A DNA stretch of 25,492 bases from a virus. This document shows positions 9,177 to 24,219 of the stretch, piece after piece. The notes beneath the pieces were generated by a model. That model had not been told where the DNA came from and ran no database searches. It saw only the letters and a program-made list of their open reading frames with translations. Within the stretch, counting starts at the first letter, position 1. Each line of letters starts with the position of its first letter. The position numbers were made by a program, and so were the translations under genes. Where the stretch lies: IMG/VR virus record IMGVR_UViG_3300000553_000250, positions 1-25,492 of that record; one strand, 5' to 3'.

Positions 9177-9184
9177 AATAAATA
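9177..9184 (+). promoter_or_regulatory. T4-like late promoter, leaderless spacing
   Basis: AATAAATA ends exactly 5 nt before the ATG at 9190. No Shine-Dalgarno is present between, so the predicted transcript begins at the start codon. Confidence 0.6.
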
Positions 9185-9189
9185 TCTTT

Positions 9190-9915
9190 ATGCGCAGCAG
9201 AGAATTTATCACAGAGTCACGATTGCTCCTTGAGGGCGGAAATATGTTTAAGGATGCTGAAGATTTTGATCAACAGTATGCTACACACATTATTAAAATT
9301 GTAAACGATGCACTTGCTCCAACAAATATATCAGTAACGCCTATTGGTAGTGGCGCAACACCAACGCCAGGAAAGATAAGCGGCGATTTTGATGTTATGG
9401 CAGATGAAGGCGCAGTTCAATCGTATTTCAAAGTAAAAGATGCTAAAGAAGCTCGTCGTGCGCTGCGTGATTATCTAACACAAAAAGGTTTTGAGACTGC
9501 GCAAAGTGGCATCAATGTACATATGTTAGTTCCGCTACCAAATGGTAAAAAAGCACAGACTGATATTATGGTTACACCACACGCAGGTGAGATTAGCAAA
9601 TTTCACAAACATAATATTCCACTTGGCAGTAAGTTTAAAGGAACGCATAAAGCAATCCTAATGAGTGTGCTAGCTAAGACAAAAGGAATGATGTGGAGTC
9701 CATGGAATGGGTTGTTTAATCGTACACCAGATGGCAAGCGTGGTGACCTTATAAGCAATAATATTGATGTAGTTGCTCGCACTTTACTTGGCTCACATGC
9801 AATTGGCGGTGACCTTGGAAGTGTTGAAAGTATTCTTGCAAAACTTCCACAACAAAAAATAGATGAATTGATGACGCTGCTTGATGCTGATCCAAATTGG
9901 AAAGCTATAACATGA
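9190..9915 (+). CDS. Nucleotidyltransferase-fold protein with capsid-targeting-like N-terminus
   Basis: A 241-aa protein. The N-terminus MRSREFITESRLLLEGG resembles T4 capsid targeting sequences (MKTYQEFIAEA-type), with ITE-S and LLE-G fitting the gp21 protease pattern (I/L)-x-E. The main domain has GSGATPTP near 54-61, then GDFDVMAD (Asp-x-Asp) near 65-72, and AQTDIMVT near 117-124 with a third acidic residue, the layout of a nucleotidyltransferase active site. It could be an internal head protein injected with DNA that modifies a host target. Both the fold and the packaging are inferred. It overlaps the next gene by 4 nt. Confidence 0.7.
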   Translation: MRSREFITESRLLLEGGNMFKDAEDFDQQYATHIIKIVNDALAPTNISVTPIGSGATPTPGKISGDFDVMADEGAVQSYFKVKDAKEARRALRDYLTQKGFETAQSGINVHMLVPLPNGKKAQTDIMVTPHAGEISKFHKHNIPLGSKFKGTHKAILMSVLAKTKGMMWSPWNGLFNRTPDGKRGDLISNNIDVVARTLLGSHAIGGDLGSVESILAKLPQQKIDELMTLLDADPNWKAIT

Positions 9916-11264
9916 GAGCATCAGAATTTCTTATTGAGGCAAAAGGCGTTTTTGGTCGCAAAGAAGGCGATCCATATATGAACGATAATGGCGCAACCGC
10001 TAGGTTCATAGGCGTTCAAATGTATCCAGATACTAAACCTAACAATGGTTATAAAGATTGGGACACTGCCACAATCGCAATTGACCGCATTGAAAAAAGT
10101 ATGGGTAAACAAATTCAATGGGTAAATCGCCAGACTCCACAAACAAAAGCATTTGCTATAGCTACACTGCATGGCGATGATGGTGAACTAATTTTATGGG
10201 GCCGCTATTATAAACTAGTACCAACAAATACTGTTAGTAGTTGGAACAACAATGAATTACCAAGCGGATGGGTGTTTAATAGCAAGACTGCAAAGAAAGC
10301 AAGAAGTGGATTAACGCCACAAGATTTAATTCGTAGTGAAATGAAATTTACTGGAACTGATAATATCATTGATGCAATTGCGGCAAACGGTGCGCCAGAA
10401 GAAATAATTAATGGATTGCGCATGGCTGCTCTTGGACAAATGCCAATCTTTAGAAACAGTGCAGACAAACTAGAAAGTATCCGCGATCATCTTGGTGAAA
10501 TTATTACGCCTATTGCGTTAATGGCTGGATTGATTAGTGATTCAAATTCTAACAATGCTAAGAACGAATTGCTAAAGACAGATTGGGATAATTGTACAGT
10601 TCATTGGCCTCAAAATAAAAACAATAATTTAGTAGACAGTGAATTTACTGCGGCGGGTGGCGGAGTTATAGGCATCAGCAACAAAGGCAACAAAGGCGCA
10701 ATGGCAAGTGTTGCTAATATATTCCAAGCTATGCAAAAAGCAAGCGATACTTTAAGAAGAACGCACCAAAAAGCAGTTGATGTTATTGAAACAATTCAGC
10801 AAAATAATGCCAAAGAAGGTCCGATTAAACTTGCCGAAGACCTCGGTATTATTGATGAGTATCTTGGCAGAGAAATTCGTGATAATATAAAAGACGGAAC
10901 AGATGATCCAGAAGCATTAAGCGACAATGCTAAAAAACTTTTTGTAAAGTATGGCAGTGTTGGAACTAGTGCTGGTTACAAGATTGGATTAGTGTTGCTA
11001 GCAAACTGTGCTAAAGAAGTAGCAGCGAAACTTAATAAAGATAAAGAATTTCAAGAAAGCTGCATGTCTTTCTTAAACCAAGCAAGTATCTTGCAAGTAT
11101 ATACAGATGCTAAAGTAATTGGAAATGATGTTCACATAACAAAGTTTATGTCAACTTATCCGCCAAGATTTACTGGCGGCATAAAATTAGATGCTGGTAA
11201 AAATTATATGAGTACAATCGTCAAAGGTAAATTTTCATTTGACATAGGAAAAGGGCAGGATTAA
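9912..11264 (+). CDS. Large late protein with capsid-targeting-like N-terminus
   Basis: A 450-aa protein. I start at the ATG at 9912 (MRASEFLIEAKG), which overlaps the upstream TGA, not the in-frame ATG at 9897. The N-terminus again matches the T4 capsid-targeting pattern with a predicted cut after LIE, before Ala. The remainder is a soluble alpha/beta protein with no recognised catalytic motif; a helical region (about 265-300) includes ASDTLRRTHQKAVDVIETIQ. Coupled translation with the nucleotidyltransferase-like gene suggests a pair packaged in the head or acting together. It ends at a bidirectional terminator. Confidence 0.72.
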   Translation: MRASEFLIEAKGVFGRKEGDPYMNDNGATARFIGVQMYPDTKPNNGYKDWDTATIAIDRIEKSMGKQIQWVNRQTPQTKAFAIATLHGDDGELILWGRYYKLVPTNTVSSWNNNELPSGWVFNSKTAKKARSGLTPQDLIRSEMKFTGTDNIIDAIAANGAPEEIINGLRMAALGQMPIFRNSADKLESIRDHLGEIITPIALMAGLISDSNSNNAKNELLKTDWDNCTVHWPQNKNNNLVDSEFTAAGGGVIGISNKGNKGAMASVANIFQAMQKASDTLRRTHQKAVDVIETIQQNNAKEGPIKLAEDLGIIDEYLGREIRDNIKDGTDDPEALSDNAKKLFVKYGSVGTSAGYKIGLVLLANCAKEVAAKLNKDKEFQESCMSFLNQASILQVYTDAKVIGNDVHITKFMSTYPPRFTGGIKLDAGKNYMSTIVKGKFSFDIGKGQD

Positions 11265-11279: not shown

Positions 11280-11642
11280 TTAAGCATCACGAGAAATATA
11301 GTGATGACGAATCTTCTGCGGCTTAAAATACTTTTCTACAGTGTTAAAGACAAGTTCGTTTTCAAATGGCTTACATGAGAAAACATCAATATAGAAATTG
11401 CCATCATTATCACAGAAATGACCAGTAATGTTTGATGTTTCAATCATCTGACAAAGACTATATCCAGCCTTGTCAGCAGCATGCGTTGCAAAACGCTCAA
11501 TCCAAGGTTCACCAAATGCTGTCATGTCAATAACAACAACTAGTTCCTTAATAAAATTATAGATATTTTCCTTTGAACCGATAAGTTCCTTATCGCCAGC
11601 GGTGCAGTCTAGTAGTAGGTGGCAACCCCAAGTCTTGCTCAT
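11280..11642 (-). CDS. speH: S-adenosylmethionine decarboxylase (SpeH/SpeD type)
   Basis: A 120-aa prokaryotic-type AdoMet decarboxylase: WGCHLLLDCTAG at 5-16, DMTAFGEPW at 39-47, IETSNITGH at 67-75 and YIDVFSCKPF at 84-93. Ser70, His75 and Cys90 keep the spacing of the pyruvoyl Ser63, His68 and Cys83 of the Thermotoga enzyme. The residue before the self-cleavage Ser is Thr instead of Glu. The product, decarboxylated AdoMet, feeds spermidine synthesis; polyamines neutralise packaged DNA, and speD-like genes occur in marine cyanophages. GGAG precedes the ATG. It follows the exonuclease gene on the same strand. Confidence 0.85.
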   Translation of the reverse strand: MSKTWGCHLLLDCTAGDKELIGSKENIYNFIKELVVVIDMTAFGEPWIERFATHAADKAGYSLCQMIETSNITGHFCDNDGNFYIDVFSCKPFENELVFNTVEKYFKPQKIRHHYISRDA

Positions 11643-14275: not shown

Positions 14276-14646
14276 TGGAATTGGGATTAGCAGACGCAAT
14301 TAACAAATATGGTTTTCCAATTGTTGCTGCGGCTGGAATGGGATATTTTATATTTTTTACCTGGCAATGGGCTACAACAGAAGTAAAACCAGTGTTAAGT
14401 GAAGCTAATACGGTGTTGATTGCTCTCATTGACCGTATTCGTATGTTAGATAACGATCTTATCCGTCTTAATCAAAAACTAAACATTGTGCTAATGTTGC
14501 GCGGCAAAGAGATTGAAAGCCAGCGCCATCTTGATGATGCCAAAGCTGCTGTTGCTGCACAAAAAGTAGAACTTGAAGCAGAAAAAACGCTAAAGAAAGC
14601 AGCTAAAGAAATCAATAAAAACGAAGCCGCTGGCGGTAATAGTTAA
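14275..14646 (+). CDS. YvrJ/BhlA-like small membrane protein, copy 2
   Basis: A 123-aa paralogue of the 12475 gene: KYGFPIVAAAGMGYFIFFTW (about 11-30) as membrane span, then the helical IALIDRIRMLDNDLIRLNQKL region, then an extra Ala/Lys/Glu-rich coiled-coil tail (about 75-118) missing from copy 1. The topology suits a holin-like or scaffold protein with a cytoplasmic coiled coil. Its start is coupled to the 53-aa gene. It meets the convergent HNH gene tail to tail with a 4-nt overlap. Confidence 0.66.
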   Translation: MELGLADAINKYGFPIVAAAGMGYFIFFTWQWATTEVKPVLSEANTVLIALIDRIRMLDNDLIRLNQKLNIVLMLRGKEIESQRHLDDAKAAVAAQKVELEAEKTLKKAAKEINKNEAAGGNS

Positions 14647-15170
14647 TTACTTAGAATTGCTTCTTTTTTAATTAAAAAAACAGAAGTATTATTTTGTCTT
14701 GCTGCTTCATTCAATCCTTTATATTCTACACCACGATAGATTACAGTTTTAAGAAGCGGATGCTTTAATCTTTTTTCTTCCGTGCAAGGTTGAAGTTTTC
14801 CTTTATTGGGAGAAACCTTTCCATATCTTGGATTTTTCTCACCAACCATTTTTCTTTTTTCCACCCATTCTGCGGATTGTTTTCGCCCTTTTCCTTGACC
14901 TTTTTTAGATTCACTAATTTTTCTTTTTGTTTCTTCGCTTAATGGTGGTCTTTTTACACCTCTACGAGCAGCATACATTATTTCCATTCTTTCTTCTTCT
15001 GTAATCAAACCAAGCAATCCTCTATATGCAACAAGGTCTTGCCACCTTCCATGCACTTCATACAAAATTTTGTGTGCTTCTGCGTGTTCTTCTATGGTTA
15101 GTTCTACGAGATTCGATGGGTCATCAGTTCCGCCCATATGTCTTGGAATAATATGATGTTTATGTTTCAT
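14643..15170 (-). CDS. HNH homing endonuclease with NUMOD3 and NUMOD1-like modules
   Basis: I start at ATG 15170 (MKHKHHIIPRHMGG), not at the frame's upstream limit 15317, which lies inside the cyclase gene. The 175-aa protein has HH at 5-6, Asn20 and His29 (an HNH core: HHIIPRHMGGTDDPSNLVEL), a NUMOD3 segment (LSEETKRKISESKKGQGKG, about 77-95) and a helix-turn-helix-like NUMOD1 tail (YRGVEYKGLNEAARQNNTS). It is a free-standing mobile gene. A late-type octamer lies exactly 5 nt before the ATG. It sits right behind the cyclase gene stop. Confidence 0.85.
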   Translation of the reverse strand: MKHKHHIIPRHMGGTDDPSNLVELTIEEHAEAHKILYEVHGRWQDLVAYRGLLGLITEEERMEIMYAARRGVKRPPLSEETKRKISESKKGQGKGRKQSAEWVEKRKMVGEKNPRYGKVSPNKGKLQPCTEEKRLKHPLLKTVIYRGVEYKGLNEAARQNNTSVFLIKKEAILSN

Positions 15171-15175
15171 ATTAT

Positions 15176-15183
15176 TATTTATG
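15176..15183 (-). promoter_or_regulatory. T4-like late promoter, leaderless spacing
   Basis: CATAAATA on the minus strand, then exactly 5 nt (ATAAT), then the HNH ATG at 15170. No Shine-Dalgarno is present. Confidence 0.6.
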
Positions 15184-15198
15184 ATTTGTTCTATAAAC

Positions 15199-17250
15199 CT
15201 ATTTTGAAGTTGCTCTAAAAACACCATCCCAACCTTCGCCTGGTAGATTTTCTGCCATCTCTGTACAGCGTTCAATCCACATATCATAATAGCCATCCAT
15301 TTGACCATCAAACTCACCTTTTAACTGCTTGCATGCATCAATAGCAGTTTTAAAGTGTTGTGAGCGATAATCATCCATCATACTAAGATGCCCACTTTTT
15401 GCTGCTAGGTATTCTGCGGCTGAACCAACATCATATATCTGTAGCACAGTGTGAATATTCACACCTTCTTTTTTACCCTTAACTGCAATGCAATCTAGTG
15501 GCAGAGTAAAGTACTCGTCCTTGACATATTCATTAGTCTTATCACCAATAACCATAGCAACATGATATGGTTTACTTTGTCCTTCTAAGCGTGATGCCAG
15601 ATTAACGCCATCACCAAGACAAGTATAATCAAAACGCTGACTAGAACCCATGTTGCCCACCACCACAGTAGCAGTGTTAATACCAAGCCCCATACCGAAA
15701 GGTGGAACACCTTCGGCAGCAACTTCTCTATTAAACGCATCTAAACTTCCTAACATTTGTAATGCTGTTTTCACAGCGTTTTTTGCATGGTCTGCATCAT
15801 CAAGTGGTGCGTTCCAAAATGCCATTTGTGCATCACCAATATACTTGTCAAGAGTGCCCTCGTTTTCTAATATCTTTGCTGTCATCGCTGTCATATAGCG
15901 ATTCATTATTTTGGTAAGACCTTGAACATCACTACCATAATGCTCAGAAATTGAAGTAAAGCCCCTAACATCGGTAAACATAATTGACAATTCACGAGAC
16001 TCTCCACCAAGCGTTAATAATTCAGGATTCTTTTGTAGTTTCTCAACCATTGCTGGTGAAAGATAAGTTCCAAATTGTTTCTTTATTTGTTGTTTTTGTA
16101 AGAACTCACTAACAAATTTAACTCCATAAGCATGCAATGCCACTAGTATAATTGTGACAGTAAATGCAGTAGCGTCAAACAAATAAAGGTTGCTACTAAA
16201 TTCGTACATGCTGCCACCAATACCAGCGAGAACAAGTACAACGACAGTTGATAATCCGACATAAGTCCACCTTGTTAAAAATAATAATAATAAACTACCA
16301 ATGATAAGAGCAGCAAGTTCTGCGCCTTCTGCATAATCTGGTCTAGAAATGTTAACCTTGTTTGCCAGTGTTGCAATAATTTTTGCTTGAATATCTTGTG
16401 GATATACAGCACCGATAGCAGTTGGAACAGGGTTAGCAATACCAGCCGCACTGGTGCCAACAATAACAACAGCGCCATCAAAGTTTTGTGGCATATTCAT
16501 AAGACTTACTTGCTTATGCTGTTGACTTAAATCAATCCATACACGACCAAGTTGATCAGTGGTGAATATAGACTTGCCCATGCCCATCTTATCAATACCA
16601 ATTTCACTTAACTTGACCTTAAAGTTCTTTTCTTGCATCAAGACACGCAGCGTCTCAATACCAATAGTAGGATAAAGTTTGCCGCCACTGCCAACAAGAA
16701 GTGGAATACGACGATTCACACCATCTATTTCAGGATATACATTTGTAGTTCCGACACCGATAGCGGCGTTTTCTAGTTCTGGAATGTTGGCGATTACCCC
16801 AGGATAATTGTAAATCCTATCAATAAAATTACTGTTGACAATGGCAGCACCGTTAGGGCGAGGCGTATTTTTACTCACGCTGCTTGGAATATTTGAAAGA
16901 ATGGTTGGGTGTTGCTTAAGAGTATCTGCTAGAACTGCATCACCGCCTTGACGGTCTGCCTCTGGCATCAACACTGTCCATACAACTAGACTTGCTCCAC
17001 GAGCATAGATATCTTTAATAATATCCGCATATATTTGTCTATTAAACGGCCACTGACCATACTTGTCAAGTGCTGCTTCATCAATATTGACTGTATAAAT
17101 TGGATTATCAGTTGGCGCTTTGTTGGTGATTAGCGTGTCAAAGTATCGTAACTTAATACTTTCAACAAAGTTGGGTGATGAAACTTTGATAGCAACTAAT
17201 ATTGCCAGCGTGATGAGTGCAGTCCATGGAGATAGCAGAATTTTTTTCAT
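15199..17250 (-). CDS. CHASE2-domain class III adenylate cyclase
   Basis: A 683-aa membrane enzyme. An N-terminal span (about 8-24) leads to a periplasmic CHASE2 sensor (about 30-300, with YTVNIDEAALDKYGQWPF and GAVYPQDIQAKIIATL), then three spans (about 310-378), a short linker and a class III cyclase domain (about 415-605). Metal-binding Asp427 (FTDVRGF) and Asp473 (KYIGDA), substrate residues Lys469 and Thr543, and Asn550 and Arg554 (NLASRLEG) are all present. The Lys/Thr pair is the class IIIb adenylate-cyclase signature. It should make cAMP from ATP in response to a periplasmic signal. Late-type octamer 5 nt before the ATG; terminator upstream. Confidence 0.9.
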   Translation of the reverse strand: MKKILLSPWTALITLAILVAIKVSSPNFVESIKLRYFDTLITNKAPTDNPIYTVNIDEAALDKYGQWPFNRQIYADIIKDIYARGASLVVWTVLMPEADRQGGDAVLADTLKQHPTILSNIPSSVSKNTPRPNGAAIVNSNFIDRIYNYPGVIANIPELENAAIGVGTTNVYPEIDGVNRRIPLLVGSGGKLYPTIGIETLRVLMQEKNFKVKLSEIGIDKMGMGKSIFTTDQLGRVWIDLSQQHKQVSLMNMPQNFDGAVVIVGTSAAGIANPVPTAIGAVYPQDIQAKIIATLANKVNISRPDYAEGAELAALIIGSLLLLFLTRWTYVGLSTVVVLVLAGIGGSMYEFSSNLYLFDATAFTVTIILVALHAYGVKFVSEFLQKQQIKKQFGTYLSPAMVEKLQKNPELLTLGGESRELSIMFTDVRGFTSISEHYGSDVQGLTKIMNRYMTAMTAKILENEGTLDKYIGDAQMAFWNAPLDDADHAKNAVKTALQMLGSLDAFNREVAAEGVPPFGMGLGINTATVVVGNMGSSQRFDYTCLGDGVNLASRLEGQSKPYHVAMVIGDKTNEYVKDEYFTLPLDCIAVKGKKEGVNIHTVLQIYDVGSAAEYLAAKSGHLSMMDDYRSQHFKTAIDACKQLKGEFDGQMDGYYDMWIERCTEMAENLPGEGWDGVFRATSK

Positions 17251-17255
17251 GAATA

Positions 17256-17263
17256 TATTTACC
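17256..17263 (-). promoter_or_regulatory. T4-like late promoter, leaderless spacing
   Basis: GGTAAATA on the minus strand, exactly 5 nt before the cyclase ATG at 17250, no Shine-Dalgarno. It lies just past the terminator of the upstream gene, so the cyclase has its own transcription unit. Confidence 0.6.
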
Positions 17264-17267
17264 CAAG

Positions 17268-17295
17268 AAAAAACCCCGCAAATTTCTTTGCGGGG
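17268..17295 (-). terminator. Rho-independent terminator after the GHKL ATPase gene
   Basis: On the minus strand CCCCGCAAA pairs with TTTGCGGGG around a 4-nt loop (9 bp, G/C-rich), followed by TTTTTT. Confidence 0.92.
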
Positions 17296-17305
17296 CGTTG
17301 GTGTC

Positions 17306-19276
17306 TTATGCCTGTTCTAAGTTTAGTAACTCAGTCATATTAGCATTTAAATTAGAAGTACTAATGCCAGCCTTAATGAGTTTGGCTTTCTTTTCCAAAC
17401 GCTTCTCACAATCATGCAAACTTTCATCTAGATTATCTGCATGAGTAGTCAGAGAAACTGGTTTTAGTGCGATCTCAACATCTGCTGTATCATACCCATC
17501 TTTTGCTCGCTTGCACAAGCTATGAATTACTGCCTTAGAAACAATCCATGCCATTTCCTCAGTAGCAATATCTTTTGCTGCTTCACGAATATCAGCAACA
17601 GTTCCTTCATCCTCATTAAGGTAAGGACCAACCATTGCATCAACTGCATAATTTACAGCATCATACATACAGTTAATATAAAGAGCAGTCTCAGTATATT
17701 GTGCCGCACGATGCTTTAACTGGTCAGCACTGCAACTTTCAAGATCAATCTCATTTCTGATAAACTCAATTGGCGGAAATGATTCTTGAATATCAGCAGC
17801 AGCCCCAATGCCACCAAAGAGAGGAGATTTTTTCTTAGGCGGAGAATGAGTAGCGCCTTTGCCAGTTGGCGGGTTACGGGTGCCATTTGTGCGACCATTG
17901 CTGCTGCGAACTGCAGCACTGCCGCGCATTTGCGTCATCAACTTATCAAGCAACTCTTGTGCTTTGTTTTGCAAATCATTTGCACTCAAGTTATTTGGAG
18001 CATAACTCTTGATTTTATCCTTGAACCATTGTGGCATATTTGCACGAATTTCGGGTGCAAAAGTAAGCAACTTAACTTCGGTCTTATGCTCATCATTGAT
18101 CATGATCTTCTTACGATGTGAGTCAGGCATGATTTCAAAGTCATCTGGAAGTTCTACAAAAATACGAAAGTATTTGTAGTTATATAGAATGTTCAACAAA
18201 CCTGCTGTGCCACGCCATACATTGTTATTAGTGAAATCATAGATTTCATTCTTCCAAACAAGGCCACTGAATGTGCTTTGACGAGAAGTTGGATTGCTAT
18301 AAATGCTCATGCTAAGATCATTTTTCGCAATAGGCTTGCCATCGTCGTCTAGTTCAGTTGTATTAGTATTAACAGGACCGTCCCATACATAAACGATCTT
18401 AACGCCATTTTCAAGCGCAACAATTTCTTTCTTAATTTTGTCTGGTTGTGACTCACACAGGTTGTCAATTCGTTCTTCAATGCTTACAAAACGAATGCTA
18501 TTCTTGTGAGCAAAACCAATACCAGTAAAGAAGCGCATTTCAATGCGCGGGTCAAGACGATAGAAACGAGCATATGCAGTGTTGACCAACCAGCCTCGTG
18601 CTTCCTCTTGCTGTGGGTCATATGGACGCTCTGCGGTATTTTGCTTGATGTTATTACCACACAACACGATAGCAGTCCAATCTTCATTGGTGTCCCAAGG
18701 AATCGTGTCAAGACCAGTAATATCCACAATGTCTTTATACTTTGATTTGCTCTGTGCATCGGTATCAAAGAAATCATACCGAACAAATTCTTCAACACCA
18801 GTCTTTTCATTTACTTGCTTCAAAAGCAAAACAAGTGATACCACCTTGTTTTTGCAAGTAATCCAAATCATACCTTTTTGATTGACTGCAAGTGCAGAAA
18901 TTTTAGCACCAATACCAAAGTTGTGCATTAGACTTTGCATTTTTTCAATGCTACTAGCTAAATCAACCGCCAAGCGAAGTTGATGAGCAGTCATTCCACG
19001 ACCGTTATTCCAGTAGGTAAGTTTTTTATTGCCATATGCATTATCTGATACACCACCTCGTGCACCAGAACCATAATAATTGAGATTATTGAGTGGATAT
19101 TCAAGGATGCCAAAAATTGCTGGATCAGTTTCCATTATATAAATTTTAGGAGATTCTGCATTTTGACTTGCTTCAATTGCATTTTGAAGTAGTTCTCGCA
19201 CCATCATATCACTTGGTGCCTGTGAAATAGTACGGGTAATATGACCCGTTGGATTGCCGAACGCGAGTGTACTCAT
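17306..19276 (-). CDS. GHKL (Hsp90-like) ATPase, 656 aa
   Basis: The N-terminal domain carries the GHKL ATP-binding motifs: RELLQNAIEAS at 26-36 (N box), NNGRGM at 89-94 (G1 box; Asp is replaced by Asn in the usual DxGxG) and FGIGAKISAL at 119-128 (G2 box). It continues with a transducer-like region (about 200-420), a low-complexity hinge rich in Ser, Arg, Gly and Pro (about 445-485), and a helical C-terminal domain. It is not topoisomerase or MutL by domain order, and may be a MORC/Hsp90-like remodelling ATPase. It has a sigma70-type promoter, a 5' leader hairpin and its own terminator. Confidence 0.78.
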   Translation of the reverse strand: MSTLAFGNPTGHITRTISQAPSDMMVRELLQNAIEASQNAESPKIYIMETDPAIFGILEYPLNNLNYYGSGARGGVSDNAYGNKKLTYWNNGRGMTAHQLRLAVDLASSIEKMQSLMHNFGIGAKISALAVNQKGMIWITCKNKVVSLVLLLKQVNEKTGVEEFVRYDFFDTDAQSKSKYKDIVDITGLDTIPWDTNEDWTAIVLCGNNIKQNTAERPYDPQQEEARGWLVNTAYARFYRLDPRIEMRFFTGIGFAHKNSIRFVSIEERIDNLCESQPDKIKKEIVALENGVKIVYVWDGPVNTNTTELDDDGKPIAKNDLSMSIYSNPTSRQSTFSGLVWKNEIYDFTNNNVWRGTAGLLNILYNYKYFRIFVELPDDFEIMPDSHRKKIMINDEHKTEVKLLTFAPEIRANMPQWFKDKIKSYAPNNLSANDLQNKAQELLDKLMTQMRGSAAVRSSNGRTNGTRNPPTGKGATHSPPKKKSPLFGGIGAAADIQESFPPIEFIRNEIDLESCSADQLKHRAAQYTETALYINCMYDAVNYAVDAMVGPYLNEDEGTVADIREAAKDIATEEMAWIVSKAVIHSLCKRAKDGYDTADVEIALKPVSLTTHADNLDESLHDCEKRLEKKAKLIKAGISTSNLNANMTELLNLEQA

Positions 19277-19296
19277 TGTTTATTTTCCTTTTTGTT

Positions 19297-19327
19297 GTTA
19301 CCATGAACAAACCCACCATGGGGTAAC
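19297..19327 (-). other. Hairpin in the 5' leader of the GHKL ATPase mRNA
   Basis: GTTACC pairs with GGTAAC, extended by ATG/CAT across a 2-nt bulge, around a loop of roughly 11 nt. It lies between the promoter (19347-19375) and the Shine-Dalgarno (AAAGGAAA). It could affect stability or translation; no function is shown. Confidence 0.4.
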
Positions 19328-19346
19328 TATGTCTAAGGTATAATTA

Positions 19347-19375
19347 TTTATACTATACAATTAGAGGCTTGTCAA
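19347..19375 (-). promoter_or_regulatory. Sigma70-type promoter
   Basis: Minus strand: TTGACA (19370-19375), 17-nt spacer, TATAAA (19347-19352). Its upstream AATGC context matches the promoter at 4818-4845. It drives the GHKL ATPase gene. Confidence 0.72.
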
Positions 19376-19404
19376 GCATTTTTTTTAATTATTTTCAATT
19401 ATTT

Positions 19405-20289
19405 TTAAGAAATTTTAAAGGCAATATAATTGACTATCTCGCTTGCAATGTCAAGGCCGCAATATTTTTCAAATCCTTCAAAGCCAGGCGCACTGTTAGC
19501 TTCACAGACTTTGTAACCATCTTTGTCAAATAGCAAGTCAATGCCAGCAATATCTAAACTAAGAGATTTAGCAGTTTCACGACATAGCAAATCAATTTCG
19601 TCCGTAATAGGAAATGGTTCTCCTGTGCCGCCACCAGTGATATTAGCACGGAAGTCTCCTTCTGGACCAATGCGTTTCATTGCGCCAATACACTTGCCGC
19701 CAATTACCCATACCCGCAGGTCAGTTCCAATAGCGGCATCAATGAACTCCTGAACGATCATTGTTTTCTTTACGCCAAGATTATCAACAAGGTCCATTAG
19801 ATTGACAAAGTGTTCTTTTGTTGGGCAAAGATGAACACCCTTGCCATGCGAACCTTGCAGCACTTTAACTACGCAAGGGAAACCAATTTCTTGTTCAACA
19901 GTTGTGATATGAACAGGAAACTTCACTAACATTGTTTTAGGTGTTGGTATATTATTTGCAACTAATATCTGGTGCGCAAGTAGCTTATCGCGCACATTAT
20001 TGATAGCATCACTGCTGTTGATTGTTTGCACATTATACTTCTCAAGATGTCGCATAACTGCACTGCTAAAATAATTTGTGCCAGCACCTGTTCGCGTTAG
20101 AACAAGTTTAGGCATGGCGATAAGATCACCTTGGTAGCGAATACTTTTATTCTTGCTACGGTTAACTATGATATCAAAATGATCGGGATGCATAAGTTTG
20201 GCGTCAATACCTTTGGCAGCAAATGCCGAAAGCAAACGACCATTCTCATAGCTATCACGATGTTGACTTAAAATCCACACTGTGCTCAT
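19405..20289 (-). CDS. rimK: RimK-like ATP-grasp ligase
   Basis: A 294-aa protein, the same size as bacterial RimK. The N-terminal domain (1-95) has LTRTGAGTNYFSSAVMRHLE, where RimK reads R-GA----YG-AV---. The ATP-grasp core has FPCVVKVLQGSHGKGVHL (about 137-154), QEFIDAAIGTDLRVWVIGG (about 185-203), and metal-binding Asp/Glu/Asn in GIDLLFD and CEANSAPGFEGFE. RimK adds glutamates to the C-terminus of ribosomal protein S6. A phage copy could modify the host ribosome or another C-terminal acceptor, though the substrate is not proven. No cognate S6-like gene is nearby. Confidence 0.85.
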   Translation of the reverse strand: MSTVWILSQHRDSYENGRLLSAFAAKGIDAKLMHPDHFDIIVNRSKNKSIRYQGDLIAMPKLVLTRTGAGTNYFSSAVMRHLEKYNVQTINSSDAINNVRDKLLAHQILVANNIPTPKTMLVKFPVHITTVEQEIGFPCVVKVLQGSHGKGVHLCPTKEHFVNLMDLVDNLGVKKTMIVQEFIDAAIGTDLRVWVIGGKCIGAMKRIGPEGDFRANITGGGTGEPFPITDEIDLLCRETAKSLSLDIAGIDLLFDKDGYKVCEANSAPGFEGFEKYCGLDIASEIVNYIAFKIS

Positions 20290-20304
20290 GCCATTAGTTA
20301 TTCT

Positions 20305-20402
20305 TTAATTGATTTGTCGCAAATAATTCACAAAACTATCTGTGCACTTTGTCCAAGTGTAATCTTTGCTGCTTTCGTACACATATTTACGATAAAAGTT
20401 GG
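20305..20402 (-). pseudogene. C-terminal remnant of a glycosyltransferase-like gene
   Basis: On the minus strand the frame reads about 30 codons, FYRKYVYESSKDYTWTKCTD then SFVNYLRQIN, to a TAA at 20305-20307. The W-x-K-C-x-D-x-F-x-x-Y ending resembles the last helix of group 1 glycosyltransferases. No start codon or upstream part survives: the frame breaks near 20400, where an unrelated fragment on the opposite strand begins. It is probably a leftover of a recombination or a homing event. The family call is tentative because the fragment is short. Confidence 0.5.
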
Positions 20403-20984: not shown

Positions 20985-20992
20985 GTTAAATA
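20985..20992 (+). promoter_or_regulatory. T4-like late promoter of the curli-like operon
   Basis: GTTAAATA, predicted +1 near 20998, 18-nt leader with GGAG 5 nt before the ATG at 21016. Confidence 0.55.
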
Positions 20993-21015
20993 TGTTAGGA
21001 ATTTTTGGAGCAACT

Positions 21016-21495
21016 ATGCGTAAATTTGGCATTTTTATGACAGTTTTAATGTTTTCATCTGCTGTTAATGCATCGCAGCTTGAATTTCAATTCAAGAGTC
21101 CACAGTTTAGTGGAAACGGTTATGGTACATATTCTCAGCAAATCGAAAACACTGAGTATACACGCCAACAAGCAATAGAAGCGTCAAAACAAGCAGCAGC
21201 CGCTGCTGCAGAATCTGCTGCAAAAAACAGTATTTTAAACCAATTTGTTAACAATTTACAAAGTCGTATCTATGCACAGGTTAGTCAAAACATAGCTAAC
21301 CAGTTGTTTAATGGCACTGCTGGGTCAGCTAGTACAACTTGCGCAACAGCAGCGGCTGGATGCACAGTTCAATTTCCAGATGGCAGCAATGTTACATTTT
21401 GGAATGATGGAACTAATGTTAGTTTACAAATAATTGGTGGGTCAAGTGATAGTTCAACAACGGTAACTATACCAATCGGAGCGTTCAAATTATGA
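21016..21495 (+). CDS. csgF: CsgF-like curli assembly factor
   Basis: I start at ATG 21016, which has GGAG upstream; the ATG at 20992 lies within the promoter box. The 159-aa protein has a signal peptide cut after VNA (residue 19). The mature N-terminus SQLEFQFKSPQFSGNGYGTY matches the CsgF pattern F-F-NP-FGGN that plugs into the CsgG pore. A helix (LNQFVNNLQSRIYAQVSQNI) and a C-terminal beta part (VQFPDGSNVTFWNDGTNVSLQI) follow as in CsgF. An Ala-rich insertion (QAAAAAAESAAK) makes it slightly longer than usual. CsgF couples the CsgG pore to amyloid nucleation at the cell surface. The stop overlaps csgG by 4 nt. Confidence 0.85.
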   Translation: MRKFGIFMTVLMFSSAVNASQLEFQFKSPQFSGNGYGTYSQQIENTEYTRQQAIEASKQAAAAAAESAAKNSILNQFVNNLQSRIYAQVSQNIANQLFNGTAGSASTTCATAAAGCTVQFPDGSNVTFWNDGTNVSLQIIGGSSDSSTTVTIPIGAFKL

Positions 21496-22343
21496 TTAAA
21501 AAACTTATTATATTAACCACAACGGTTCTTGCATTATCGGCATGCCAGACTGCTAAGGAAGTGGTAGTTAATGAAAGACCAACCATTGTTCAGCCCGAAC
21601 TGGTAAATGAATTTAAAAGCGTTCGTGCACCAGATGGTCCTCCGTTTGTAGTAGCACTTTATAACTTTAGTGACAAAACAGGTCAACGCAAACCAAACGA
21701 TGCTTATGCTAGTTTAAGTAGTGCAGTCACACAAGGCGCAGAAGTTCTTGTTATCAAGGCACTAAAAGAAGTTGGCAATGGCAAATGGTTTCGTGTTGTA
21801 GAACGAGTTGGAATTGATGATATTGTAAAAGAACGCCAAATGATTCGTCAAACTCGTGAAACATTTGAAGGAACAAGTGCAAAGCCACTAGACCCTATGT
21901 TATTTGCTGGCATATTAATTGAAGGCGGCGTAATAGGATATGACACCAACAAACAAAGCGGTGGTGTTGGTGCTGCCTTTCTTGGAATAGGCGCTGATAC
22001 ACAATATAGCCAAGATGTAGTAACTGTTTCTATGCGAGCGGTAAGCGTTCAAACTGGCGAAGTTCTTATGGAAGTAAGCACTACAAAGAACATATTAAGC
22101 ACAGGCAGCAATGTTACATTTTTTAAATTCTATGATTTAGGAACCCAACATGTAGAAAGTGAAGCAGGGTATACGATCAATGAACCTGTCACTTATGCTG
22201 TTAGAGTTGCAATAGAAGCGGCAGTAGTAGAACTAATCAAAGAAGGTGTGCGTAAAAAATATTGGAATTACGCTTCAAGACCTGATTCAACTAAATCTTT
22301 ATCAACAAAACCCGTTATACAAAATGGTGGAAGTAAGCAATAA
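21492..22343 (+). CDS. csgG: CsgG-like curli secretion channel lipoprotein
   Basis: A 283-aa lipoprotein: the lipobox LSAC places the lipid-modified Cys at residue 18. The mature protein shows CsgG blocks, including VVALYNFSDKTGQRKPND, WFRVVERVGIDDIVKERQMI, DPMLFAGILIEGGVIGYDTN, DVVTVSMRAVSVQTGEVLMEV and the C-terminal AVRVAIEAAVVELI helix. The two membrane hairpin regions (about 145-165 and 195-220) are retained. CsgG forms a nonameric outer-membrane pore that exports curli subunits. It is translationally coupled to csgF. CsgG/CsgF genes have been reported in some marine T4-type phages, as I recall. Confidence 0.93.
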   Translation: MIKKLIILTTTVLALSACQTAKEVVVNERPTIVQPELVNEFKSVRAPDGPPFVVALYNFSDKTGQRKPNDAYASLSSAVTQGAEVLVIKALKEVGNGKWFRVVERVGIDDIVKERQMIRQTRETFEGTSAKPLDPMLFAGILIEGGVIGYDTNKQSGGVGAAFLGIGADTQYSQDVVTVSMRAVSVQTGEVLMEVSTTKNILSTGSNVTFFKFYDLGTQHVESEAGYTINEPVTYAVRVAIEAAVVELIKEGVRKKYWNYASRPDSTKSLSTKPVIQNGGSKQ

Positions 22344-22366
22344 TATATTGTGATAAGGATGGAATT

Positions 22367-23095
22367 ATGAGTATAAAAAAAAGTTTAGCAATTGCAGCAA
22401 TGCTTTTGTACACGGGTATTGCAAACGCCAATGAATTATATATTGATCAAGTAGGTAACAGCGGAACTGTTAATTTAAATCAAACTGGTATAAACAATAC
22501 TATTGGAAGTTCTCCTGTGCCATTTAATATTACTGGTGATGGTAGCACTATCACTATGACACAAAGCGGCACAAGTAATACTATGACAGGCGATATTACT
22601 GGTTCAGCAGTAGAATTTACTTCTATTGTGTCAGGAAGTTTCAACACGCAAACTAATTATGGTACTGGCATGGATAATAGTACTATAACACAAACTATTA
22701 CAGGCGACACAAACACTGTTACAATAGGAAGTAGCGGTGCTGGATTAGCTGCTAATGGTATAAAAAGCACAGGCAGCGGACCAACTAGCACAATTGGTAT
22801 GGGAACTAATGTCACTGTGGCATTGGCTATCACTGGCAATACTAACAATGTATTAAGTATTCCACAAAGCAACAATGGTATACAAACCATTACTTTGAAT
22901 GGCAGTAATAACGATGTTACTGCGGTTCAAACTGGTGGCGGTGTTGGTAGTGGTCAAGGCCATGATTTAACATTGACAGTAACTGGTGGCTATAATACAT
23001 ATGATATTAACCAAAGTGGTTCAACTAAACAAATTGCTAGTGTTAGTACAATTGGAAGTAATAATACGGTTACTATTCGTCAAAATGGTAACTAA
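22367..23095 (+). CDS. Curlin-repeat amyloid-like exported protein
   Basis: A 242-aa protein with a signal peptide (cut after ANA, about residue 21). The mature part is a chain of about 8-10 degenerate curlin-type repeats with Gln/Asn/Gly spacing, for example YIDQVGNSGTVNLNQTGINN, ITMTQSGTSNTM, ITQTITGDTNTVTI, LTLTVTGGYNTYDINQSG and VSTIGSNNTVTIRQNGN. It is almost free of Lys, Arg and aromatic residues, as in CsgA/CsgB. It is the likely cargo of the CsgG/CsgF pore and may form beta-helical fibres on the infected cell or virion. AAGGATGG precedes the ATG. Confidence 0.85.
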   Translation: MSIKKSLAIAAMLLYTGIANANELYIDQVGNSGTVNLNQTGINNTIGSSPVPFNITGDGSTITMTQSGTSNTMTGDITGSAVEFTSIVSGSFNTQTNYGTGMDNSTITQTITGDTNTVTIGSSGAGLAANGIKSTGSGPTSTIGMGTNVTVALAITGNTNNVLSIPQSNNGIQTITLNGSNNDVTAVQTGGGVGSGQGHDLTLTVTGGYNTYDINQSGSTKQIASVSTIGSNNTVTIRQNGN

Positions 23096-23100
23096 AATCA

Positions 23101-24219
23101 ATGAAGAAGATACTGGCATTTCTCATGGTGATGGTATCATCCCAATGTGCAAGTGCTGCAGTGGGGACCATTACTGAACAAACTGGTCCCACTTCTATTA
23201 CCAGAGACAAATCCAGCTTTGATACACAAAAAGGCGCTGGAGTTGAAATGGCAGATACTATCAAAACTGCTAGATCGCGTGTTGGTATTCAATTTGAAGA
23301 TAATAGCACAGTTCAGATTACCGAAGATAGCAAACTTGAAATAGATGAGTTTGTTTATGATCCAGAAAAAAATGTAGGTAAAATGGCTATCAAGGTTGCG
23401 CTTGGGACTGTTCGCATGGCTAGCGGCAATATTGCTCATAACAGTGCAGACAATGTTAATATTCAAACGCCAACCGCTACTATTGCGGTTCGTGGTACTG
23501 ATTTTAGCATGAGCGTAGATGAAATTGGACGCAGTGTTATTGTGTTGTTGCCAAGTTGTCCGCCTTATATAAAAGATGAAGCATTATGTAAAGTAGGCGA
23601 AATATCAGTTATAACAAATAATGGTAAGGTCACACTTAATAAAGCATATCAAGCAACAGTTGTTAATAGTAGAAATTCTCCGCCGTCTACGCCAAAGATT
23701 GTTTCTATTGGTCTTGAAAATATCAATAATATGATTTTAATTGCTGTCCCAAAAGAAATTAAAAAAGAGTACAGCAACGACAATCAACTTAAGATTGATC
23801 AAGTTAATGTAGATTTTCTTGATAAAGATTTTTTAAAGTTTGATGAATTAAAGAAAAATGCGCTAGCTGATAATGCGTTATCAACTTATGGTGCTACTCG
23901 TTTAGATATTAACTTGTTGGCAGTAAGTTTTTTGTTTAATGTGCTATCTGTGGATGCTGACACAAGTGGATTAGGTGGAAATCTTCTTGCACAAGCGATG
24001 GACACTGTTTTACCAGATTTTAAACCTATTGCTGGTCTAAGTGCAGTAATTACGCCATATGATGTAACCATTACTCGTCAAGCAAGCGATCAACTTGCTC
24101 AAATAACAGTGCAGCGTTTTACTAACGCCACACTGACTATTTCACAAGATAACATTAAAACCATTACAAAAGTTAATGGCGGCAACACCGTTGCGTTTAA
24201 TATAAAACAAAGTCCGTAA
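23101..24219 (+). CDS. FecR-domain exported protein
   Basis: A 372-aa protein with signal peptide MKKILAFLMVMVSSQCASA (cut about residue 19). Residues about 20-150 are a FecR domain: GTITEQTGPTSITRD, GAGVEMADTIKTARSRVGIQF, DNSTVQITEDSKLEIDEFVYDP, KVALGTVRMASGNI and the hallmark VNIQTPTATIAVRGTDFSM. The C-terminal part (200-372) is beta-rich and unrecognised. Signal-peptide FecR proteins occur beside CHASE2 cyclases and surface structures in many Proteobacteria. It starts 5 nt after the curlin-gene stop, so it is probably in the same operon. It could bind carbohydrate or curlin at the surface. Confidence 0.86.
   Translation: MKKILAFLMVMVSSQCASAAVGTITEQTGPTSITRDKSSFDTQKGAGVEMADTIKTARSRVGIQFEDNSTVQITEDSKLEIDEFVYDPEKNVGKMAIKVALGTVRMASGNIAHNSADNVNIQTPTATIAVRGTDFSMSVDEIGRSVIVLLPSCPPYIKDEALCKVGEISVITNNGKVTLNKAYQATVVNSRNSPPSTPKIVSIGLENINNMILIAVPKEIKKEYSNDNQLKIDQVNVDFLDKDFLKFDELKKNALADNALSTYGATRLDINLLAVSFLFNVLSVDADTSGLGGNLLAQAMDTVLPDFKPIAGLSAVITPYDVTITRQASDQLAQITVQRFTNATLTISQDNIKTITKVNGGNTVAFNIKQSP

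Follow-up and report, generated by a model that had tools for sequence, protein, structure and literature searches.

A leader-bearing, family-X-like nucleotidyltransferase and its neighbor as candidate injected head proteins of a T4-type jumbo phage

Introduction

Do two adjoining phage genes whose products begin with T4-like capsid-targeting leaders encode proteins that travel in the head, and what might such proteins do in the next host? We address this for P0001 and P0002, which lie on the window, by which we mean the whole stretch of DNA analyzed: the first 25,492 bases of IMG/VR virus record IMGVR_UViG_3300000553_000250, a fragment of 28,774 bases. A sequence-only reading of the window had proposed that both proteins are packaged and injected and that P0001 could modify a host protein or RNA. 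On balance, we favor the idea that a T4-type jumbo phage carries both as internal head proteins and injects them, and that P0001 is a family-X-like polymerase acting on the incoming DNA. We recognized no report of a leader-tagged family-X-like polymerase in the open literature searched, most subscription papers lying outside it.

The internal proteins of T4 are the natural comparison. Parts of two papers describe IPI, IPII, and IPIII as packaged and injected, and give the roles assigned to T4 internal proteins as blocking restriction enzymes or modifying host RNA polymerase (PMC9026906, PMC12373910). In the portions concerned, Ip1-3 are said to share only the leader (PMC12373910), the first ten residues of IPIII to be enough for packaging, and the cleavage motif of gp21 to be L/I-x-E (PMC9026906). 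P0001 and P0002 are similar in that a short N-terminal leader with an L/I-x-E site precedes unrelated bodies. They differ in having a leader shorter by one residue and, in P0001, a second site. The T4 proteins also inhibit Type IV restriction enzymes, whereas P0001 carries the active site of a nucleotidyltransferase and P0002 appears nuclease-like.

Results and discussion

Both proteins begin with a T4-like leader

The leaders MRSREFITES of P0001 and MRASEFLIEA of P0002 share an E-F-[IL]-x-E core with the T4 leader that the sequence-only reading had cited (MKTYQEFIAEA type), and each contains the (I/L)-x-E site predicted there (Table 1; arrows mark predicted cuts). For P0002 we took the ATG at 9912 as the start, although the mechanical list of open reading frames (ORFs) begins earlier, at a TTG at 9897.

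To ask how common such starts are, we counted the strict pattern M[RKF]x(1-3)[EDQ][FIL][ILVF]x(1-2)E[ASGTQ] in four large relatives only (G003, G008, G011, and G012). The ORFs, of at least 60 amino acids (aa), were called mechanically with greedy removal of overlaps, so the counts include some spurious ones. The pattern occurred at 17 of 878 ORF starts (3/178, 6/393, 4/168, and 4/139, respectively) versus 2 of 3,905 internal methionines (1/704, 0/1733, 1/791, and 0/677), for a pooled Fisher p of 8e-9 and p values per genome of 0.07, 0.0003, 0.015, and 0.0028. Shuffled N-termini gave a mean of 0.04-0.12 matches per genome, the largest single value being 2. Because the pattern was written after examples had been seen and G011 and G012 are near relatives, these statistics are only indicative; the matches include relatives of P0001 and P0002 themselves. 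An earlier, looser pattern applied to 11 records matched 38 of 1,120 ORFs, or 38 of 2,279 methionines in the N-terminal zone versus 12 of 4,809 internal ones. A looser (I/L)xE test at first starts gave p = 0.001-0.03 in G003, G011, and G012 and was not significant in G008 (p = 0.21). Leader-like starts were seen, among others, on DUF6267 proteins, on small basic proteins, and on a protein that by eye is gamma-glutamylcyclotransferase-like. The leader motif also offers a means of predicting, from their sequences alone, which proteins uncultured jumbo phages inject.

Sister phages differ in what occupies the gene position of P0002 (slot 2). At locus L003 it holds a 482-aa protein (phrog_3560), and at L002 and L006 a 331-aa protein on the opposite strand, the one at L002 matching phrog_13937. 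Both have leader-like starts and, by eye, a D...SxK arrangement. The three protein types showed no significant BLASTP similarity to one another, and when profiles of the P0002 family and the L002/L149 variant were compared, the best alignment covered residues 1-8 only (Prob 0.9). As judged from their sequences, the sister phages keep the leader on otherwise unrelated slot-2 proteins: the leader is shared and the body differs.

A second site in P0001 is conserved across the family

Within the window clade (L001-L005) the leader MRSREFITES is retained, and in L006 it is MLIKDIITES. Most P0001 relatives lack MRSREFITES and start with M-x-LLEGGNVF. The latter contains a second predicted site, E15↓G16, which the sequence-only reading overlooked and which is far better conserved than the first. 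In an alignment of 45 rows (A3: P0001 and 44 relatives kept from 81 loci after a 93% redundancy filter), P3 of this site is L in 35 rows and I in 10, that is, in 45 of 45, and P2 is L, N, or V. A fixed L/I at P3 with a variable P2 is the pattern that L/I-x-E specificity predicts. The annotated N-termini of relatives in three isolates (MSGNAF in PA5oct, MGGAAF in Phosso, and MGGRAF in Atu_ph07) coincide with the predicted mature G16, and no leader was found upstream of these three genes. In an AlphaFold2 model, residues 1-13 of P0001 have a predicted local distance difference test (pLDDT) score below 50, compared with an average above 90 for the body; residues 1-12 of P0002 are likewise below 50 in its model. 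The P0001 leader, disordered in the model, is a separable module outside the fold.

Given the conserved E15 site, the isolate starts at M-[GS]-G, and the disordered leader, we place the final cut at E15↓G16. A mature N-terminus after the first predicted Glu had been anticipated. The L/I-x-E sites bear out this logic, but maturation of P0001 probably does not stop at E9, with E9↓S10 an additional or earlier predicted site.

Relatives encode a gp21-type protease, and one is annotated from virions

We searched for the gp21-type prohead protease (Peptidase_S77, PF03420). It was found in 4 of 12 records (G008, G009, G011, and G012), with none in G010 (212 kb) or in seven shorter records; in 0 of 8 records of a first set that included the window's own; and in all three isolates, PA5oct, Phosso, and Atu_ph07 (3 of 9 records searched). 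Among family-bearing records larger than 150 kb, 7 of 8 encode it. The protease gene expected by the sequence-only reading is therefore present in large relatives, though not in the fragment itself. By eye, G008 also encodes a gp23-like protein (LAE↓SASAG) and scaffold-like and portal-like genes.

In PA5oct, EST35_0231 is a distant relative of P0001 (tblastn 33%, E 4e-6; hhalign Prob 98.9, E 3.8e-17). Its GenBank entry (MK797984) reads 'structural protein' with a note of electrospray ionization tandem mass spectrometry (ESI-MS/MS), a virion note that concerns this distant relative and not the window proteins. The same note stands on 11 of the 17 features shown in its block. From the leaders, the sites, the protease in relatives, and this annotation, we consider it very likely that P0001 and P0002 are packaged as internal head proteins.

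The same evidence bears on the idea that P0001 is synthesized in the infected cell as a conventional DNA-repair enzyme and not carried in the head, its N-terminal motif being a docking peptide or a coincidence. The virion evidence covers a relative and not the window proteins, most relatives bear only M-x-LLE ahead of GGN, and the isolate relatives are leaderless, all of which would fit. We nonetheless regard it as improbable in view of the leader enrichment, the leader common to unrelated slot-2 proteins, the gp21-type protease in relatives, and the ESI-MS/MS note on one of them.

The P0001 model has a polymerase-type fold

Neither P0001 nor P0002 matched a family above cut-off in Pfam, PHROG, or NCBIfam, the best weak match being phrog_10825 on P0002 (E 0.0016). 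Direct tblastn against INPHARED with P0001, P0002, and the L030 relative gave no match. The P0001 family occurs in at least 511 of 599 matched IMG/VR stretches, and one peptide pattern of the family gave no confirmed case in 84,980 cellular species genomes.

The AlphaFold2 model of P0001, built from the 45-row alignment, has a mean pLDDT of 92.3. The top Foldseek match was DNA polymerase lambda (E 1.3e-8, with 22% identity across 207 columns), and Pol lambda made up 50 of the 50 matches listed. VIA gave Z 11.9 over 183 residues against Pol beta 130-335. The thumb subdomain is present, the alignment spanning Pol beta 130-335 and Pol lambda to 575. At the profile level, hhalign aligned the P0001 family with 56 bacterial and archaeal PolX proteins (those of 80 fetched loci in which the motif was found) at Prob 91.9 and E 6.9e-7, pairing the GS...GDxD site, the third Asp, and the KGxxxxxxGLF segment. 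As controls, 40 column-shuffled profiles gave Prob of 1.9 at most and a reversed profile 0.1. The Gly-Ser and Asp-x-Asp motif and the nucleotidyltransferase fold that had been read from the sequence are thus upheld, with D125 added as the third carboxylate. G53, D66, D68, and D125 are invariant in the 45 rows, down to approximately 28% identity; S54 is not among the invariant residues. We are confident that P0001, as modeled, has a polymerase-type fold, that of a minimal palm-thumb DNA polymerase type lacking a lyase domain and having all three catalytic carboxylates. Its sequence and model suggest polymerase activity.

P0001 resembles family X polymerases (Pol lambda, Pol beta, and bacterial PolX) in the palm-thumb, the GS...DxD, the third Asp, and the KGxxxxxxGLF thumb segment. 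It is unlike them in having no lyase or PHP domain, no YFTG, and no Pfam match, and in bearing a head leader. A partial parallel is the jumbo-like phage YerA41, for which a section of PMC9023294 reports a PolX-type gene, DNAP03, and a predicted DNA polymerase, which one being unspecified, in virions. DNAP03 is near enough to PolX for BLASTP, and that section describes no leader.

The invariant catalytic residues also bear on whether P0001 is a head-core or structural protein with a relic polymerase fold, and P0002 likewise. The PA5oct relative is annotated 'structural protein' inside a block of such proteins, as this would predict. Invariance of four active-site residues over 45 rows at approximately 28% identity is, by contrast, expected of an active enzyme, and we consider a structural role very improbable.

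A role like that of T4 Alt, which the sequence-only reading had raised, did not hold up. Alt is described in part of PMC9026906 as an enzyme in the head from which a short N-terminal propeptide is removed. However, it is an ADP-ribosyltransferase, whereas the P0001 model is a Pol-beta fold of the family X palm-thumb kind with no Pfam match to an Alt-like ADP-ribosyltransferase, and protein- or RNA-modifying Pol-beta families match far worse. CCA-adding, MNT, and RlaP profiles (from 19/20, 14/20, and 8/8 fetched loci, taken from 20 genomes that likewise supplied PolX genes) scored Prob 0.8, 1.7, and 0.3, respectively, versus 91.9 for PolX. These scores and the thumb in the model lead us to think it rather unlikely that P0001, although packaged, serves as an effector, transferring nucleotides to a host protein, toxin, or tRNA by MNT-, RlaP-, or Alt-like logic on a PolX-shaped scaffold. 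Some observations do favor such an effector. Pol-beta nucleotidyltransferases are a named class of cargo in the multidomain, injected 'polyvalent' phage proteins, as P0001 would be cargo, and are predicted there to modify proteins; the part of that account concerned describes neither a head leader nor a PolX-type thumb (PMC5512222). RlaP nucleotidyltransferases are proposed, in a passage of PMC7824862, for RNA repair in jumbo phages. The best, weak PDB sequence match of P0001 is a terminal uridylyltransferase (E 0.11), and the YFTG motif considered below is not conserved.

P0002 as a candidate nuclease

By VIA, residues ~10-113 of the P0002 model resemble SH3-like EF-P/CarD domains (Z ~3.5), and the C-terminal part resembles MspI (Z 4.3), HincII (4.0), and HinP1I (3.9). 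Four residues, invariant in the 7 rows aligned, could form a PD-(D/E)XK-type site (Table 1). Judging from the model, P0002 is probably a nuclease.

The sequence-only reading had raised the coupled P0002 as a partner of P0001. We find this plausible because the slot holds leader-bearing proteins and because, in PA5oct, a phrog_13937 match (E 1.3e-5) lies two genes before the P0001 relative EST35_0231.

Table 1. Features at and around the two leader-bearing genes, in window positions.
Feature	Position	Strand	Basis or remark
P0003, 213 aa, directly upstream of P0001	8532..9173	+	L-V-L-E↓G near N-terminus; signal-peptide-like stretch at ~residues 108-131, by eye
AATAAATA	9177..9184	+	just 5' of P0001
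P0001, 241 aa, leader + family-X-like (Pol beta/lambda palm-thumb) nucleotidyltransferase	9190..9915	+	ATG ORF, fold, profiles
Leader MRSREFITES of P0001; first predicted site I7-T8-E9↓S10	9190..9219	+	sequence
Second, family-wide predicted site L13-L14-E15↓G16-G17-N18; predicted final N-terminus G16 (9235)	9226..9243	+	P0001 alignment
Catalytic Pol-beta signature G53-S54-x11-D66-x-D68	9346..9393	+	aligned with PolX GS...GDxD
D125, third catalytic carboxylate (Q-T-D-I-M-V)	9562..9564	+	aligned with PolX Q-V-D-L-R
P0002, 450 aa, with leader, N-terminal SH3-like domain, and C-terminal domain weakly like restriction endonucleases	9912..11264	+	ATG start, model
Leader MRASEFLIEA of P0002; predicted site L7-I8-E9↓A10	9912..9941	+	overlaps P0001 stop (ATGA)
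Candidate nuclease residues E196, D242, S256-x-K258 of P0002	10497..10685	+	invariant in 7 aligned rows

A possible role on incoming DNA

We propose the following sequence of events. Late in infection, the leaders would dock P0001 and P0002 in the prohead core. The gp21-type protease would then clip after L/I-x-E, finally at E15↓G16 in P0001, leaving the proteins free in the head. They would stay there through DNA packaging, enter the next host with the DNA, and act on it ahead of phage gene expression, filling gaps or trimming or resealing ends where the DNA had suffered damage in the particle or cleavage by the host. We give such a repair role about an even chance. If the P0001 family does consist of widespread leader-tagged polymerases, some phages would be injecting DNA-repair enzymes, which would bear on how they survive environmental DNA damage and host cleavage.

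The neighborhoods of the family in other phages suggest a broader version. In other IMG/VR phages, DUF6267 is either part of the same protein as the P0001 family or comes after it, and a HIGH-type nucleotidyltransferase with a leader-like start of its own also follows. In Atu_ph07 and Phosso, the gene preceding the P0001 relative has KLDG and EGVV motifs, with Pfam RNA_ligase matches below cut-off (E 0.002 and 0.085, respectively), and a KIDG protein lies near the relative in PA5oct. Large T4-type phages might, then, carry a head-borne kit for DNA-end repair. It would pair a leader-tagged, family-X-like polymerase matured by the protease (P0001) with the nuclease-like P0002 or whatever replaces it, other lineages adding a ligase-like KxDG protein, and would enter with the DNA to mend the genome ahead of phage gene expression. 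We put this forward tentatively and think it somewhat less likely to be right than wrong. Of its three parts, P0001 is well supported, P0002 is weak, and the ligase is unproven. If the idea is true, such phages would carry their own equivalent of end-joining or gap repair.

Several observations weigh against these ideas. On packaging, neither PF03420 nor another gp21-type protease was found in the window's own 28.8-kb record, itself a fragment. The mass-spectrometry support for EST35_0231 is that of the GenBank note and not of its source paper. The three isolates encode the protease, yet their P0001 relatives are leaderless; the link between leader and packaging is therefore not strict. On the fold, the Pfam thumb and palm models of PolX (PF14791/PF14792) each matched 0 of 7 records. 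YFTG is the nucleotide-selection motif of PolX; it is not conserved in P0001, hhalign placing N-I-P-L-G-S opposite it, and template-directed synthesis is therefore unsure. The near-window clade alone scored Prob 14.8 against PolX and the isolates alone 4.5, compared with 94.2 for the far rows, so the PolX signal stems mainly from more distant rows. For these reasons, we term P0001 family-X-like and do not file it as a member. On P0002, the model has a moderate pLDDT of 76.3 from a 7-row alignment, Foldseek found no match below 0.001, and Z values of ~4 are common for unrelated folds, which makes them weak evidence for a nuclease. On the ligase, profiles were built from 16 of 17 (DNA ligase) and 3 of 9 (RNA ligase) fetched loci. 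DUF6267, with its KWDG motif, scored Prob 0.7 against DNA ligase and 0.1 against RNA ligase, which makes it a lead only, and no KxDG protein of Atu_ph07, Phosso, or PA5oct scored above 1.0 against these ligase profiles.

Other genes on the window contig and in relatives

The element AATAAATA, just upstream of P0001, presumably resembles a T4-type late promoter. Elements of this kind were weakly enriched before leader-bearing ORFs (6 of 19 versus 101 of 801, p = 0.03). In the syntenic 338-kb record G008, the three-gene slot is flanked by C-methyltransferase (PF08484) and S-adenosylmethionine decarboxylase (PF02675) genes, as in the window; the flanks were matched by eye.

The C-terminus of P0003 is glycine-rich and hydrophobic by eye, and P0003 is possibly a membrane-acting injected protein. 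In G008 the P0003 slot (297068-297964; L128:68-964, + strand) encodes a 298-aa protein in which the leader MRISEIIVEA is followed directly by a twin-arginine translocation (Tat) signal (TIGR01409, 18.3 bits with a cut-off of 16.7, residues 14-38; PF10518, E 7e-4). This protein may be head cargo that, once injected, is exported through the host Tat system.

In G007 (14379-20364; L018/L019), a P0001 relative, DUF6267, a HIGH nucleotidyltransferase, a ParB-like protein, and a basic protein lie in a row, several with leader-like starts. In G008 (234949-243486; L124, L125), a 2,845-aa protein starting with MMTIINSTLKEA contains, by eye, a HIGH-type nucleotidyltransferase start and ParB-like and ART-like stretches; it looks like a giant packaged polyprotein.

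Elsewhere on the window, the S-adenosylmethionine decarboxylase (PF02675) gene is at 11280-11642 and a RimK-like ATP-grasp ligase (PF08443) at 19405-20289. At 15199-17250 is a protein with CHASE2 and adenylate/guanylate cyclase domains (PF05226, PF00211), a phage-borne membrane cyclase found in the same place in syntenic phages; an HNH/NUMOD3 homing-endonuclease-like ORF (14643-15317) overlaps the end of its gene. Curli-type genes, namely CsgG (PF03783), a curlin repeat (PF07012, over cut-off), and FecR (PF04773), occupy 20992-24219 and have counterparts, by eye, at 57393-60937 of G003.

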